DNA of 35,147 bases from an uncultured Gammaproteobacteria bacterium (lineage in GTDB: Bacteria > Pseudomonadota > Gammaproteobacteria > Arenicellales > CALHMG01). This document shows, one piece after another, positions 15,099 to 22,257 of the stretch. The translations under genes were made by a program, and so were the position numbers. The stretch lies in the NCBI GenBank assembly GCA_938034705.1, contig CALHMG010000121.1, positions 1 through 35,147 of the forward strand. Reading direction: 5' to 3'. Numbering within the stretch: the first letter of the stretch is position 1; the number at the start of each line of letters is the position of its first letter. The notes beneath the pieces are model-generated. The model did not search any database, was not told the DNA's origin, and was given only the letters and a program-made list of their open reading frames with translations.

Positions 15099-16061
15099 TC
15101 AGGACGCCAGTGGATCGGTCGGCGCCGAATGCTGATCGTAAGCTGCCTCAAGCTCTCCCCGCAAATATTCGTCGAATCGAACGGGCTCGAATCGAGGAGG
15201 CTGGCCTGGTTCAATACAACCTTGCAACGGCGCGATAGTTTTCAACACGTTTGGGTCGAAGAAATAGGCGCATGAATATCGCTCACGCCCGCTCTGGTTG
15301 ACCACTCGGTGAGGCGTGGAGCGGAGCCTGCCGTTACTCCAGCGATGAAGCATGTTGCCGCTGTTCAGAACCAGAGCGCCCACTCGCGGCGGCACATCGA
15401 TCCAGCCTTTGTCCGGATGCTGAACCTGAAGGCCACCCGTTTCGTCCTGTGCCAGCAGCGTGATGAATCCAAAATCTGCATGAGGTGCCGATCCGTAGCT
15501 GTCGTCAGGCGCGTCGGATGGGGCCGGTGGATAGCGAAGCAGGCGCAACCAGGTCGTTGGGCGAACAAAGTAACTTGAAAACGAAGCGACATCCGTATTC
15601 AGACAGGTCGCAAAAACGCTCATGAACTGTCGAGCAACCTGTTCCATGGCCCGATCATATTCAAGCAACGTTTCGCGAAAGCCTGGCAGATCCGGCCACT
15701 GGTTCGGCCCGGCGAGGTAAGCGCCGGCCTGAACATCCGGATCCCCCGGACCCGCTTCTCGCATCATCATGAATGACTCGCTCTGATTTGGCCGGGTCAC
15801 TTGGGCCAGCGTGGAATTACGGTCAACCGACGTGTCTATGGCGATAAAGCCTCGGTGCAGGGCATCCAGGGCAATCTCGTTTTTGACCGCGAGCGGTTCG
15901 GCGTGAAACGCCATGGACATCTTGAAAACGCGTTCGATCAGATCGGGTTTGATGTTGAAATTTTCAACGTAGGCGAAGCCGACGTTCTGATAAGCTGCCA
16001 ATGTCGCTTCGACAAGATCTGGCGATGACGCGTCCAGCACGGGTATTTCGGTGTCAGTCAT
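15099..16061 (-). CDS. 2OG-Fe(II) oxygenase, isopenicillin N synthase-like
   Basis: A 320-aa oxygenase with the iron triad H194-x-D196 (SAPHADFGFIT) and H251 (STPHRVVN), and 2OG-binding R261 in an R-x-S motif (ERYS). The N-terminal segment IPVLDASSP and the motif VGFAYVENF match the DIOX_N domain of this family. It is a paralogue of the oxygenase at 17434-18438, with the same architecture and similar core motifs. Substrates of bacterial members include amino acids, ethylene precursors and plant-derived compounds. None can be assigned here. It is the first gene of a minus-strand pair with the HAD hydrolase and is divergent from yaeQ. Confidence 0.9.
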   Translation of the reverse strand: MTDTEIPVLDASSPDLVEATLAAYQNVGFAYVENFNIKPDLIERVFKMSMAFHAEPLAVKNEIALDALHRGFIAIDTSVDRNSTLAQVTRPNQSESFMMMREAGPGDPDVQAGAYLAGPNQWPDLPGFRETLLEYDRAMEQVARQFMSVFATCLNTDVASFSSYFVRPTTWLRLLRYPPAPSDAPDDSYGSAPHADFGFITLLAQDETGGLQVQHPDKGWIDVPPRVGALVLNSGNMLHRWSNGRLRSTPHRVVNQSGRERYSCAYFFDPNVLKTIAPLQGCIEPGQPPRFEPVRFDEYLRGELEAAYDQHSAPTDPLAS

Positions 16062-16140
16062 GCCTGGCTACCTGCTTTGCCTGATCGATGTCACGGATTA
16101 CGAGGATATGGGCCGGGTCACAGGCCGGCCCGCAATGTTT

Positions 16141-16171
16141 TTCGTCACGCGGTTCGTCACGGGTTCGTCAC
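16141..16171. repeat. Three direct TTCGTCAC repeats in a divergent promoter region
   Basis: TTCGTCAC occurs at 16141-16148, 16153-16160 and 16164-16171, with start-to-start distances of 12 and 11 bp, about one helical turn. The block sits between the divergent oxygenase (-) and yaeQ (+) genes, where a regulator could bind cooperatively. A 7-bp GGGCCGG/CCGGCCC hairpin (16110-16131) lies just before it. Function is inferred from position only. Confidence 0.45.
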
Positions 16172-16248
16172 TACGTCATCCGACACAAGCCGGCGGTTTT
16201 CCTCGCCAATGATCGGCCGTCACCTGAATATTCGTCTGGAATACAACT

Positions 16249-16797
16249 ATGGCGCTCAAGGCCACCGTCTACAAGACCGAGTTAAGCATCGCGGACATGG
16301 ACCGCGACTACTATGGCAGTCACGCGCTGAGCGTCGCCCAGCATCCATCCGAAACGCATCAGCGAATGATGCTGCGTCTCGCGGTATTCGCACTGAACGC
16401 AGCGGAGGATCTTGAATTCGGCCGCGGGATCAGTACCGATGATGAACCCGATATCTGGCAGAAAAACCTTACGGGCGAGATTGAACACTGGATCGAGCTT
16501 GGCCAGCCCGATGAAAAGCGTATTCGCAAAGCGTGTGGACGTGCGAAGAGGGTCTCGATTTATACCTACACGGACAACGCGGCGCGGATCTGGTGGGACA
16601 GCAATCGAGGCAAACTCGAGAGATTCGGCAATCTCACCATTGTGAATGTCCCTGACGCCGGGATCGGCCAGCTTGAGTCGATGGTCGAGCGCACGATGCG
16701 GCTGAGCTGCAATATTCAGGACGAGGAGATCTGGATCTCTGACAAGGATCGTTCTGCCACTTTAAAGCCGGTACAGTGGTATCCGGATACGGATTAA
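16249..16797 (+). CDS. yaeQ: YaeQ family protein
   Basis: A 182-aa protein matching YaeQ, a widespread proteobacterial family with a PD-(D/E)XK nuclease-like fold. Family landmarks include the N-terminus MALKATVYKTELSIAD, H-P-S-E-T motif with the following RMMLRLAVFALNA, the GQPDEKRIRKACGRA segment, and the ending that contains QDEEIWISD. The cellular role of YaeQ is poorly defined. It was once linked to haemolysin transcription as an RfaH suppressor, but that is disputed. It opens a closely spaced plus-strand run, with 28 nt to the AhpD-like gene. Confidence 0.93.
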   Translation: MALKATVYKTELSIADMDRDYYGSHALSVAQHPSETHQRMMLRLAVFALNAAEDLEFGRGISTDDEPDIWQKNLTGEIEHWIELGQPDEKRIRKACGRAKRVSIYTYTDNAARIWWDSNRGKLERFGNLTIVNVPDAGIGQLESMVERTMRLSCNIQDEEIWISDKDRSATLKPVQWYPDTD

Positions 16798-16825
16798 GGC
16801 GTCAGAGAAGAGCAGGGGAGTATCG

Positions 16826-17416
16826 ATGACAGAGCGCAAAGCGTGGATCAAGCTGATCGAGCCCGAGGAGGCGAGCGGGCGACTGGTAGAAATGTACGAC
16901 ATAGTGAAGACACCCCATGGGACTGTCGACAATGTCATGAAGGCGCACAGCCTGCGACCGGAAACAATGAACGGGCATGTGGTGCTGTACCGATCAGTTC
17001 TGCATGACAAAGACATTACGCAGCCGCTGTGGTTTCTCGAATGCGTTGCCTCCTATGTCAGCATGATCAATAAATGTGAGTACAGCCTTACACACCACTT
17101 TATGAACACTCGTCGTCTGCTTAACGACAAGGACAGGTCGACACGCATTTACGCGGCGCTTGATGCAGGAGAACCCGAGCGGGAATTCTCGGGTAAAGAA
17201 CTCGAGCTGCTGCGCTACGCGGGCAAGCTTACGGCGACCCCGGGCAACATGCAGGAGACGGATATTCTCGCTGCTCGAAACGCGGGCGCGACCGACGGTG
17301 AAATTCTGGAAGTCAATCAGGTGTGTGCCTATTTCAACTACTCCAATCGTCTTCTTAATGGTCTGGGCGTCACAACACACGGTGACCAGATTGGCTACTA
17401 TTCTGAAGACGAATAA
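16826..17416 (+). CDS. AhpD-like / carboxymuconolactone decarboxylase-family protein with CxxS site
   Basis: A 196-aa all-helical protein of the AhpD-like, peroxidase-related branch. The helix that normally carries the redox pair CxxC followed by His reads NKCEYSLTHH, so the second Cys is Ser (AGC codon) while the following histidines are kept. Loss of the resolving Cys would rule out the usual AhpD disulfide cycle and suggests another chemistry, such as a decarboxylase-like or monothiol role. It sits between yaeQ (28 nt) and a 2OG-Fe(II) oxygenase (17 nt) in an apparent operon with a creatininase-family enzyme and a GST, so it probably belongs to a small-molecule degradation route. The substrate is unknown. 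Confidence 0.82.
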   Translation: MTERKAWIKLIEPEEASGRLVEMYDIVKTPHGTVDNVMKAHSLRPETMNGHVVLYRSVLHDKDITQPLWFLECVASYVSMINKCEYSLTHHFMNTRRLLNDKDRSTRIYAALDAGEPEREFSGKELELLRYAGKLTATPGNMQETDILAARNAGATDGEILEVNQVCAYFNYSNRLLNGLGVTTHGDQIGYYSEDE

Positions 17417-17433
17417 CTGACGCTGAATCCGAG

Positions 17434-18438
17434 ATGCCCTACGCCACTTCTACCCAAATCGAACTCTCGCAGATTCCTGTTCTCGACATTTCAGCGCTGC
17501 GCCGAAACGATGTCGGCGCCGCTGGCGAAGTTGCGAAACAGATTCTTGAAGCCGCGACCACAATTGGTTTTTTCTATGTACGTGGTCACGGTGTACCGGA
17601 CGAGGTTTTTGAGCGCGCAAATGAGGCCAGTCGCGAATTCTTCAAACAGCCTCGCGAAGTGAAGGACACCGTATCGGTCAACGCAAACCACCGCGGCTTT
17701 CTGAGCGTTGGCGAAGCCCAGATGTACGGCGCCAAGCACGTTGATCTCAAGGAATCGTGGATATGGAGCATTGAGAACGACGATCTGGCAACGACGCCGG
17801 CAGCCGACGACGAGTTTCTTGGCCACAATCAGTGGCCGACCGAGCCGTCGCAATTTCGTCCAGCGATGGTGGAATTTTTCAATGAGGCTTCGGGTGTCGC
17901 CGTTGACCTGATGCGTGCATTCGCCGTGAGTATGGACCTTGAAGAAGACGCCTTTTTGAAAACCGCTACCAATCCTGTGAGTCGCGGTGCAAGCGTTTAC
18001 TATCCACCTCAGTCGGCGGATCTCGGCGAGGAGCAGTTTGGAGTCGCTCCACACACTGACTACGGCTGCCTGACGCTGGTATGGCAGGATCATGTAGGCG
18101 GGCTTGAGGTTCGCAGTGCTGACGGCCAATGGGTGACCGCGCATCCTATCAAGAATACTTTTGTCGTTAACGTCGGTGACCTTCTTGCACGCTGGACGAA
18201 TCAACGGTTCAAGTCCACGCCCCATCGCGTCGTCAATCGATCGGGCCTTGAGCGATGCTCAATGGCGCTGTTCTGGGATCCCGACAGCGATACGATCATC
18301 GATCCTTCGACCGTCATCAAGTCCGGTGAAAAAATCCGATACAGACCAACCACCGTCGCGCAGCACATCCTGAAGCGCTACGGACAGTCGTTTTCCTATC
18401 GCAAAGGTAGTCCTGACGCGCAAGCTGGCGAGAGCTGA
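17434..18438 (+). CDS. 2OG-Fe(II) oxygenase, isopenicillin N synthase-like
   Basis: A 334-aa oxygenase with the iron triad H207-x-D209 (VAPHTDYGCLT) and H264 (STPHRVVN), and 2OG-binding R274 in R-x-S (ERCS). The N-terminal DIOX_N segment has IPVLDISAL and GFFYVRGHGVP. It is a paralogue of the minus-strand oxygenase at 15099-16061. It is the third gene of the yaeQ-to-GST run, 17 nt after the AhpD-like gene and 11 nt before the creatininase-family gene. Hydroxylation or oxidative cleavage of a substrate later handled by the amidohydrolase is a plausible inference. Confidence 0.91.
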   Translation: MPYATSTQIELSQIPVLDISALRRNDVGAAGEVAKQILEAATTIGFFYVRGHGVPDEVFERANEASREFFKQPREVKDTVSVNANHRGFLSVGEAQMYGAKHVDLKESWIWSIENDDLATTPAADDEFLGHNQWPTEPSQFRPAMVEFFNEASGVAVDLMRAFAVSMDLEEDAFLKTATNPVSRGASVYYPPQSADLGEEQFGVAPHTDYGCLTLVWQDHVGGLEVRSADGQWVTAHPIKNTFVVNVGDLLARWTNQRFKSTPHRVVNRSGLERCSMALFWDPDSDTIIDPSTVIKSGEKIRYRPTTVAQHILKRYGQSFSYRKGSPDAQAGES

Positions 18439-18449
18439 GCCGAAACCTG

Positions 18450-19244
18450 ATGCGGCTGCAGCTTGCGACCTGGCCTGAGGTTGAGGCCTACCTTGGGACC
18501 CGCGATGGCATCGCGATACCGCTTGGTTCGACCGAGCAACATGGCCCCAATGGACTGGTCGGTACCGACGCACTGTGCGCCGAGCAGGTTGCCTGGCACG
18601 GTGCACAATCGGTGGTCGCTGCGGGCAGGAAGATTCTGGTCGCCCCTACCCAGGCGCTGACACCGGCTCAGTTCAACCTGGCTTTTCCGGGAACCATTTC
18701 GCTATCGGCGTCGACTTTCGCGCAGGTACTCGAAGACATGGTTCGGTCGCTGGCCCGCAGTGGTTTCAGGCGATTTTATTTTCTTAACGGCCACGGGGCG
18801 AACGTTGCGGTGACGCGTGCTGCGATTCACGACCTGCATCTGCGACGATCAATAAATGCGCAACCGGAATTTGCGAGTCTCCAGTTCAGATTCAGGAGCT
18901 GGTGGGATTATGCGCAAACCAACAGTCTGCGGGCCCAACTCTATGGTGAGGCTGAAGGCATGCACGCGACGCCCAGCGAGGTCGCGATCACTCAGGCCAT
19001 GGTAAACCGATCGGCACCGACGGTCGAAAATATGGCATTTGAGCCGCTGTCGACAGAATTTTTCGTCAGTCACGCTGGCGACAATCATAATGACGCCCAG
19101 ACCCATCGCGAAGTCTTTGCCGATGGTCGCGTCGGATCAGATCCTTCTCTTGCAGACCCGGCGCACGGTCGTCGTTTGCTGGATACTGCGGCAAAGGAAT
19201 TTGCCGACGACTTTTTGGCATTTACATCGGATCAGGAAAATTGA
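18450..19244 (+). CDS. Creatininase-family amidohydrolase
   Basis: A 264-aa metal-dependent amidohydrolase. The creatininase metal site is intact: E29 and H31 (GSTEQHGP), D40 (GTDALCAE), H115 (FLNGHGAN) and E177 (GMHATPSE). Family members open cyclic amides (creatinine) or hydrolyse formamides in riboflavin, F420 and mycofactocin pathways. None of those pathways is visible nearby, so this is best called a catabolic amidohydrolase of unknown substrate. It is 11 nt after the oxygenase, and its stop codon overlaps the GST start as TTGA, so the genes are very likely co-translated. Confidence 0.9.
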   Translation: MRLQLATWPEVEAYLGTRDGIAIPLGSTEQHGPNGLVGTDALCAEQVAWHGAQSVVAAGRKILVAPTQALTPAQFNLAFPGTISLSASTFAQVLEDMVRSLARSGFRRFYFLNGHGANVAVTRAAIHDLHLRRSINAQPEFASLQFRFRSWWDYAQTNSLRAQLYGEAEGMHATPSEVAITQAMVNRSAPTVENMAFEPLSTEFFVSHAGDNHNDAQTHREVFADGRVGSDPSLADPAHGRRLLDTAAKEFADDFLAFTSDQEN

Positions 19245-19906: not shown

Positions 19907-20620
19907 CTAAACGGATACCGACAGATCAATCAGCCAGGCGGGTAGTACGTCGAGCAGCCATGCCTCGAGAACGCGGTGCCAGTGCATGTAGAGCACGATA
20001 CCGATGATAATGAGACAGATTCCGAGCACCATTCGGGTCCACGGCATCGCTTTCATCAACCGCCCGCGTCGTTTTGCCAGCACCTCGCGTGAACCGTAGG
20101 CGAGCCCCATAAGCATCACGGCGACACCCAGACCGAAACACAGCATCGTCAGTGCCGCCTGGGTCAAGCCTTCGCCCGCGGCGGCCAGGCTGATCGCGCC
20201 ACCGAGCGTTGGCCCGATACAGGGCGACCAGACCGCACCGAGCAGGGCGCCAACGACAAACTGGCCAAAAAGTCCGTTGCCCTCAACGCTATCCAGTTTT
20301 CGATTAGCGCGATCTGCAAGTGGCGAGGACACTGCCGCGAACAATCGCTGTGATTGAGGTATCAACAACAGGACACCGAATACGATCATCATGACCGCGG
20401 CGATTCGGTTGATCATGTCGGTGTCGATGCCGATGAGATGGCCGAAGGCCGTGACCCCCACGCCGATTACCGTGAATGACACGACCAGACCGGTTGCGAG
20501 TGCAACAGGTCCATACCGGCTGCTCTGGAATGCTGATGCGATTACGATCGGCAGCAGTGGCAGCACACATGGATTTATAAGCGTCAGCAGGCCGGCCACA
20601 AAGGCCCAGAACAGAGTCAT
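19907..20620 (-). CDS. CcdA/DsbD-type membrane thiol-electron carrier
   Basis: A 237-aa polytopic protein with about six TM helices. The two membrane Cys of the CcdA/DsbD-beta family are present at C18 (INPCVLPLLP) and C134 (WSPCIGPTLGG). They relay electrons from cytoplasmic thioredoxin to periplasmic thiol proteins. This is the short CcdA-like form, without the alpha and gamma domains of full DsbD. The gene just upstream on the same strand encodes a Tat-exported thioredoxin-like protein with a U/CxxC site, an obvious candidate partner. A strong terminator at 20663-20698 separates the two, so they are probably transcribed separately or with strongly different output. Confidence 0.92.
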   Translation of the reverse strand: MTLFWAFVAGLLTLINPCVLPLLPIVIASAFQSSRYGPVALATGLVVSFTVIGVGVTAFGHLIGIDTDMINRIAAVMMIVFGVLLLIPQSQRLFAAVSSPLADRANRKLDSVEGNGLFGQFVVGALLGAVWSPCIGPTLGGAISLAAAGEGLTQAALTMLCFGLGVAVMLMGLAYGSREVLAKRRGRLMKAMPWTRMVLGICLIIIGIVLYMHWHRVLEAWLLDVLPAWLIDLSVSV

Positions 20621-20725: not shown

Positions 20726-21163
20726 TCAGCTCGCGGCGGCGAGACAGTTCTTGAACAGCGCTTCAATTTCGCTTTCACCGGTGGTCGCGATGACACGATC
20801 GACCTCATTGCCTTTGGCAAAGGTGATCAGTGTCGAGCGGCGACGCACTTCCAGGTCCGACGCGAGTGGCGTCTTCTTGAACTCATCCCAGTCAGCCTTG
20901 AAAACACGTACGGCCTTATAGGCCGGGTTGTCGAGTAGCGCACTCACGGTGCGTCCTTGTACACGACACGTAGGTCACCAGGATGATAGAACGGCCAGCA
21001 TGAAGGGTTCGCCACTGGCGAGGGCAGCGTTGTAGTCATCGAGGGTAAAAGGTTCGATGTCTGACTCGGCAGCCATGGCTACTTCGGACAACAGCGCTGC
21101 CGGGGCAAGCGTCGCGGCCGAGGAAGCCGCCAGAAACTGGCGTCTTGTGAGGCTCATGGTCAT
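20726..21163 (-). CDS. Probable selenoprotein: Tat-exported thioredoxin-like protein with UxxC active site
   Basis: One 146-codon frame, open throughout except for a TGA at 20975-20977. Residues 1-31 form a Tat-type signal (LTRRQFLAASSAATLAPAALL, cut near AMA/AE). A thioredoxin-like domain follows: PFMLAVLSSW, then TGA, then PTCRVQ. The TGA is codon 63, exactly the first Cys of a W-C-P-T-C site, and the second Cys (C66) is kept. Downstream sequence is intact and thioredoxin-like (VFKADWDEF, RRRSTLITFAKGNEV, with Ser at the usual cis-Pro place). Insertion of selenocysteine would give a 145-aa periplasmic U-P-T-C oxidoreductase. Supporting points are hairpins right after TGA, a clean frame on both sides, a terminator after the true stop, and a CcdA-like gene next door. 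The alternative is a nonsense mutation from TGC or a sequencing error. No selA, selB, selC or selD is in the window. Confidence 0.68.
20939..20971 (-). promoter_or_regulatory. Candidate bacterial SECIS element (selenocysteine insertion hairpin)
   Basis: Reading the minus strand after the TGA, CGCAC (20949-20953) pairs with GTGCG (20939-20943) around the loop CGTGA. Its loop lies 27-31 nt from the TGA, with a G in its second position, which fits the loose consensus for bacterial SECIS elements. An alternative, overlapping fold starts nearer the TGA: ACGTG-T-CGT against ACGCAC-C-GT around the loop GTACAAGG. It has a bulged T reminiscent of E. coli fdhF but is closer to the codon. The folds were found by eye, with no energy calculation. 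Confidence 0.45.
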
Positions 21164-21597: not shown

Positions 21598-22257
21598 ATG
21601 ACACTACGAATTGGCGATCCCGCACCCGACTTTATCGCTGACACGACCCTGGGCGAAATCAGCTTCCACGACTGGATTGGAGACAGCTGGGCAATCCTGT
21701 TTTCGCATCCCAAAGACTTCACACCGGTCTGCACCACTGAACTCGGCACGCTCGCAGGTCTGACGGAGCAGTTTGCGCATCGCAACACAAAGATTATCGG
21801 TCTTTCCATCGACTCCGTGGACGACCATTTGCGCTGGGTTGGCGATATCGAAGAAACCCAGGGCAACGCCGTGACCTACCCGTTGATTGGCGATGTCGAT
21901 CTCAAGGTTGCCAAGCTCTACAACATGATTCATCCCAACGCGAACGGCCGCGCCGAGGACCGTACCGCGGTCGACAATGCGACGATTCGCGCAGTGTTTG
22001 TGATTGGTCCTGACAAACTGATCAAGGCCAGCGTGTACTACCCGATGAGTACCGGTCGCGACTTCGACGAAATCCTGCGGATTGTGGATTCCTGTCAGCT
22101 CACTTCAAAACATCAGGTGGCAACACCCGCTAACTGGCGTCGCGGTGACCAGGTGATCATCGTGCCGGCGGTCAGTGATGAGGATGCGCGCAAAAAGTTT
22201 CCTGAAGGCTGGAATGCGCCGAAGCCGTACCTGAGGATTGTTGACGAGCCGCAGTGA
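21598..22257 (+). CDS. 1-Cys peroxiredoxin (Prx6-like)
   Basis: A 219-aa peroxidase that reduces H2O2 and organic peroxides. The peroxidatic Cys is C45 in FTPVCTTELG, with T42 and an Arg in the NATIRAVFVIGP strand completing the usual site. The long C-terminal domain (about 150-219, ending NAPKPYLRIVDEPQ) is the Prx6-type extension. A further Cys at about 167 (VDSCQLT) is not at a standard 2-Cys resolving position. ATG 21598 follows AAGGA by 7 nt. It sits head-to-head with the thioredoxin-like selenoprotein candidate and near CcdA, making a thiol-redox and peroxide-defence island. Confidence 0.94.
   Translation: MTLRIGDPAPDFIADTTLGEISFHDWIGDSWAILFSHPKDFTPVCTTELGTLAGLTEQFAHRNTKIIGLSIDSVDDHLRWVGDIEETQGNAVTYPLIGDVDLKVAKLYNMIHPNANGRAEDRTAVDNATIRAVFVIGPDKLIKASVYYPMSTGRDFDEILRIVDSCQLTSKHQVATPANWRRGDQVIIVPAVSDEDARKKFPEGWNAPKPYLRIVDEPQ

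Follow-up and report, generated by a model that had tools for sequence, protein, structure and literature searches.

Selenocysteine (Sec)-containing thioredoxins of the Pfam family PF00085, with a UxxC site, are already known and are listed as experimentally verified (PMC13188914, Table 1). The same table lists other thioredoxin-like selenoproteins, namely a thiol:disulfide interchange protein (PF13098) and DsbG-like, TlpA-type, SaoT and HUIPC proteins, redox proteins whose Sec lies within or close to a site of the UxxC type. Here we describe a gene that adds one member to the Sec thioredoxins, found on the minus strand of a 35,147-nucleotide contig (C121; "the window" means this whole stretch of DNA). 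Compared by its table entry, the listed Sec thioredoxin shares with the protein predicted here the PF00085 domain and a UGA-encoded Sec as the first residue of UxxC. In contrast to that entry, the present protein has a probable twin-arginine (Tat) signal, is encoded beside ccdA, and scores 30.6 bits against the canonical thioredoxin model TIGR01068, an NCBIfam equivalog whose cut-off is 96.8 bits. The protein resembles the listed thioredoxin-like selenoproteins in its redox site but, unlike them, matches no NCBIfam selenoprotein model at an E value of 1e-3. A non-exhaustive literature search, judged by titles and the starts of abstracts, returned no report that connects either CcdA or Tat with a Sec-containing thioredoxin. 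If our reading is correct, an exported, CcdA-partnered thioredoxin joins the bacterial selenoproteome. The preliminary description of this DNA had proposed a probable new selenoprotein; we keep the selenoprotein, for which the Sec machinery, Cys-bearing homologues and a genome-specific hairpin all argue, and tone down "new", because the literature already lists verified Sec thioredoxins of the UxxC type (PMC13188914, Table 1).

Translation of positions 20726 to 21163 on the minus strand, with TGA read as U, yields 145 residues followed by a terminal TGA, and the second ATG, at 21157, offers an alternative start. The only internal stop of this frame is the TGA at 20977-20975, which corresponds to codon 63. 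Its context is LSSW-U-PTCRVQ, which places it at the first Cys position of the thioredoxin W-C-x-x-C site. With C written for the TGA, PF00085 matches residues 39-136 (20756-21049) across that position with 27.4 bits against a cut-off of 23.5. An AlphaFold2 model, computed with C at residue 63 and an alignment of 21 sequences, folds like a thioredoxin, with a mean pLDDT of 88.5 overall and about 98 within the domain, and places residue 63 directly N-terminal to a helix at 64-77. The top PDB match of this model in Foldseek is 5zf2, a thioredoxin-like protein, with a TM score of 0.89 when normalised to the length of the target and 0.65 when normalised to that of the query. Inspection of the translation by eye revealed a probable Tat export signal at 21068-21163 (MTMSLTRRQFLAA...AMAA), which features the twin-arginine motif TRRQFLA at the N-terminus. 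Under translation table 11, ORF calling cuts the frame into a 62-aa ORF (20975-21163) and a 73-aa ORF that starts with GTG (20726-20947). The preliminary description had reported one minus-strand frame interrupted only by a TGA at the first Cys of W-C-x-x-C and had anticipated that a pipeline would yield two short proteins or a pseudogene, and both statements agree with these results. Annotation that takes every TGA as a stop splits genes of this sort.

The source assembly (5.03 Mb in 380 contigs, 85% complete and 2.6% contaminated) contains the complete set of selA, selB, selC and selD. On contig C112, selA (572.8 bits, cut-off 267.9) adjoins selB (440.1 bits, cut-off 242.25), and contig C73 carries selD (271.6 bits, cut-off 125) together with a tRNA-Sec gene (70.5 bits, Rfam gathering score 47), which ARAGORN types as tRNA-Sec with anticodon TCA. 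The search for these genes that the preliminary description had called for thus found all of them. ARAGORN types a second Rfam match above the cut-off, on C291 (48.5 bits), as tRNA-Ser. The sel genes and the thioredoxin gene lie on different contigs of this fragmented assembly. The GC contents of C121 (56.6%), C112 (57.4%) and C73 (56.8%) all lie between the 5% and 95% points of the remaining contigs used (55.5-59.5%), and in tetranucleotide distance C112 and C73 do not stand out among contigs of their length. The SelD at L047:645-2843 occupies the C-terminal portion of a 732-aa protein, in which it is fused to a pyridine nucleotide-disulfide oxidoreductase; the fusion passes the selD and Nterm_to_SelD cut-offs, fails the fusion_not_SelD cut-off, and carries CGAK, which would match, with Cys, the UxxK site given in Table 1 of PMC13188914.

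Two frames similar to GrdB/PrdB, each with an in-frame TGA in a U-P-N-C context, are present in the source genome, one on C73 (L047:3765-4891) and one on C123 (L194/L223), which suggests that UGA very probably encodes Sec outside the thioredoxin gene. Because these frames occur together with selA, selB, selD and tRNA-Sec, the genome very probably decodes UGA as Sec. The C73 copy, which shares its contig with selD and tRNA-Sec and has the TGA context VFLPV-U-PNCTRAV, lies above the Pfam GRDB cut-off and below the NCBIfam PrdB and GrdB cut-offs, and for this reason the gene is perhaps a member of a divergent subgroup. When formate dehydrogenase was considered as a further Sec gene, none of 10 PF00384 matches had a stop within its matched part.

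The GrdB/PrdB-like genes also supply a reference for the element that would recode UGA. Downstream of the Sec-TGA, CCGTGAGC is present in all five such genes (L190-L194; two from the source genome and three from other genomes), which amount to four distinct sequences over 43 nt and include one gene with only 32% protein identity. Because the motif persists down to this level of identity, it may serve to search for selenoproteins in this lineage. In both genes of the source genome, the lowest-energy fold closes it into a hairpin of 6 bp around the loop CGUGA; the three genes of other genomes have the motif, and their lowest-energy folds pair otherwise and leave the CGUGA loop unclosed. The thioredoxin gene has a predicted SECIS element at 20929-20969 on the minus strand, an irregular stem of -13.6 kcal/mol, whose apical hairpin CGCAC-CGUGA-GUGCG (20939-20953, loop at 20944-20948) was recognised by comparison with the GrdB/PrdB-like genes. 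The thioredoxin gene and the two GrdB/PrdB-like genes of its genome, which encode an unrelated, PF07355-like protein, have in common the loop C-CGUGA-G and a U-P-x-C context. They differ in the stem, with one pair being A-U versus G-C by eye, and in spacing, with the loop 26 nt after the TGA in the thioredoxin gene versus 17 nt in the GrdB/PrdB-like genes.

General folding criteria contribute little to the evaluation of this hairpin. The generic bacterial SECIS, as given in the legend to Figure 2 of PMC13188914, has a loop of 3-9 nt with G in the first two positions and a stem of 4-16 bp, lies 16-37 nt after UGA, and has an MFE of at most -7.5. The thioredoxin hairpin conforms (loop CGUGA, 5 bp, 26 nt, -13.6 kcal/mol), which says little because the loop, stem and spacing constraints are also satisfied after 1,770 (4 bp) or 1,046 (5 bp) of 2,718 Cys codons in long ORFs of the same genome; at this GC content, the generic model alone has little power. 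Plain folding energy is uninformative: 43 of 200 shuffles were at least as stable as the 41-nt SECIS stretch, 116 of 200 were as good as a 38-nt stretch in which another structure wins, between 67 and 894 of 1,000 shuffles were as stable as three other stretches, and over 50 nt the folds of several Cys homologues are equally or more stable. At the gathering score, Rfam returned no match within the window. A covariance model derived from four elements of the GrdB/PrdB-like genes was a weak instrument for the loop; it placed the thioredoxin hairpin second of 18 window hits (12.5 bits, E 0.4), and in 100 sources it gave four hits, none of them this hairpin.

Taking the loop sequence from the genome's own GrdB/PrdB-like Sec genes discriminates between sites in this genome much better than applying the generic model does. 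Among 40,196 TGA triplets in 104 sources (about 1.1 Mb, comprising the first 20 kb of 100 contigs together with C73, C112, the window and L194, the last four included on account of their known content), 67 are followed at 12-35 nt by CCGTGAG. A stem of 5 bp or more is present in seven of these pairs, of which the three that are open for 20 codons both ways are the two GrdB/PrdB-like genes and the thioredoxin gene. Across the whole genome, TGACC-N8-30-CCGTGAGY matches 21 sites, compared with eight for a reversed control pattern; at four of the 21 the stem reaches 5 bp or more, and the same three genes are open for at least 60 codons on each side. The CCGTGAG counts are partly post hoc, because the motif was recognised through comparing these same genes. 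In addition, CCGTGAG is absent from all 16 Cys homologues tested, and no hairpin of this type follows any of the 2,718 Cys codons. Two other sites were considered and rejected: a 6-bp hairpin with the same CGUGA loop at L127:14254-14270 is intergenic, has no TGA within 12-35 nt and was treated as a decoy, and inspection by hand placed L213 inside another ORF on that strand, out of its frame. The genome-specific hairpin is the strongest evidence for Sec, since neither an error nor decay would create it.

The alignments with homologues continue through the site, with flanks intact on either side of the TGA, and every inspected homologue has Cys exactly at that position; this check, which the preliminary description had proposed, speaks for its reading. 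A first alignment, from 26 searched loci, contains 21 rows including the window copy (five loci gave no row), and all 20 other rows have Cys; so do 31 of 31 other rows in a second alignment, which has L022 and L023 in common with the first, although some low-ranked rows of these two alignments are ordinary thioredoxins. A phylum search gave Cys in 34 of 34 rows, which represent 32 distinct places out of 35 other places found. Cys was also present in 16 of 16 named loci from a search with six patterns, one of which (WCPTCRVQ) itself contains Cys. The best-scoring homologue, L022, belongs to the same order and is 46% identical. Plasmids contributed 75 records that match the protein (best 39%), and among viral contigs 19 stretches matched a pattern, with no relative among them. 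Candidates for homologues with TGA or TAG were dismissed because the stop precedes the Met (L084) or because no stop falls within the aligned part (L249, L253, L254, L237/L255, L239/L256 and L257).

The search method can detect TGA copies, as all five GrdB/PrdB-like places found with P0002 have TGA. Nevertheless, no second TGA copy of the thioredoxin gene was found in 109 genomes of the order or in 398 genomes of the phylum. Nor did a TGA copy appear among the listed matches from 369 genomes of the class; most of these matches are ordinary thioredoxins, and one is marked with two TAA. In the search of the whole order, the source genome was the only representative of its genus and of its family to appear. 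A study of the Sargasso Sea required at least two distinct TGA sequences for a new selenoprotein family and treated a single sequence as a candidate (PMC1088965). Because the window copy is the only TGA copy seen, we do not claim a new family. By that rule as stated there, the gene would be a bare candidate; we rank it higher because of the hairpin that it has in common with other Sec genes of its genome. Based on these sequence comparisons, we consider it very likely that the gene encodes a selenoprotein with Sec at residue 63.

An ordinary CcdA-linked thioredoxin would result if the TGA were a sequencing or assembly error for a Cys codon. A single TGA sequence has been seen, one base separates TGC or TGT from TGA, and the assembly is fragmented, all of which would fit such an error. 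However, an error would not single out the catalytic Cys, nor would it bring with it the Sec-type hairpin of the same genome, which the Cys homologues and Cys codons examined above lack, and we judge this explanation very unlikely. A true nonsense mutation in a decaying gene would likewise leave a small gene with an internal stop, but such a pseudogene is even harder to reconcile with the data. The frame has no further stop, homologues align through the TGA, and a SECIS-like hairpin follows it. The portion after the TGA is conserved, with identities in nine comparisons that reach 39/74 to L022 and 40/73 to L061 (lowest 24/76, L043), and conservation is lower in the short portion preceding it (5/15 to 9/19 aligned). 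Codon scores on either side of the TGA are positive (0.22 and 0.17) and exceed those of the other five frames, which also argues against decay, although this screen passes many unrelated stops.

Least probable of all is that the gene yields two separate products, an exported peptide cut short at 62 aa and a second protein of 73 aa whose translation restarts at the GTG at 20947. Both ORFs exist mechanically, but each half would lack part of a single thioredoxin fold, the GTG falls within the hairpin loop, and none of the inspected homologues is split at the TGA site. Codon usage did not prove to be a means of finding Sec sites. In a read-through screen of 103 sources (1.1 Mb), interference from antisense and neighbouring genes confounded the result, and the thioredoxin TGA ranked 330th of 4,743. 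A six-frame screen passed 193 stops (104 TGA, 47 TAA and 42 TAG) and does not separate Sec sites from chance; a Cys-type context was present in 23 of them (14 TGA, 7 TAG and 2 TAA), including the thioredoxin site and the C73 GrdB/PrdB-like site.

With the selenoprotein as the preferred reading, the gene neighbourhood points to a possible role. The next gene downstream, on the same strand, encodes a CcdA/DsbD-type membrane electron carrier (19907-20620) with the Cys motifs NPCVLP and SPCIGP. In L022, L023, L061 and L065, ccdA is also nearby on the same strand, and it is nearby in 15 of 36 loci, window included; its absence from a locus says little because most of these loci are short. The gene therefore has the neighbour typical of CcdA-linked exported thioredoxin-like proteins. 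It belongs to the same sequence family as the Cys forms of these proteins (L022, L023, L061, L065 and loci such as L224-L229), with which it shares W-C-x-T-C and an adjacent CcdA with TLxNPCVxP, whereas it has Sec where they have Cys, and CCGTGAG is absent from the four that were tested (L022, L023, L061 and L065). CcdA is the probable source of reductant, and because of this neighbour we lean towards a Tat-exported selenothioredoxin that would be reduced by CcdA.

Under the proposed mechanism, SelB would bind the hairpin just 3' of UGA 63 and bring Sec-tRNA-Sec, and Sec would stand in for the nucleophilic first Cys of W-C-P-T-C, as the sequence indicates. The N-terminal signal suggests that the protein would leave the cytoplasm through Tat and reach the envelope, and gene order suggests that it may act there as a thiol/selenol reductase that the neighbouring CcdA recharges with cytoplasmic electrons. 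The Sec form probably derived from a Cys ancestor in this lineage, along with a new SECIS. Among 13 other homologue-bearing genomes tested, three have selA, as does the source genome (G000); these three include G016 and G079, which belong to the same order and carry the Cys form. A recent gain, in which an exported, CcdA-fed thioredoxin exchanged Cys for Sec in one lineage, two Cys-type relatives of the same order kept selA, and a SECIS with the GrdB/PrdB-like loop arose within the coding sequence, is a scenario to which we give even chances. If this scenario holds, the gene would represent a selenol arm of an envelope CcdA relay and a snapshot of the birth of a SECIS. Sec and Cys forms could be compared inside one order, where selA accompanies the Cys form in both relatives found.

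Upstream and divergent of the thioredoxin gene, an AhpC-type peroxiredoxin is encoded at 21598-22257, which is perhaps unrelated to it. Elsewhere in the window, within 15099-19244, two 2OG-Fe(II) oxygenases (15099-16061 and 17434-18438) are encoded near a creatininase-family gene (18450-19244), and these possibly comprise one catabolic cluster.
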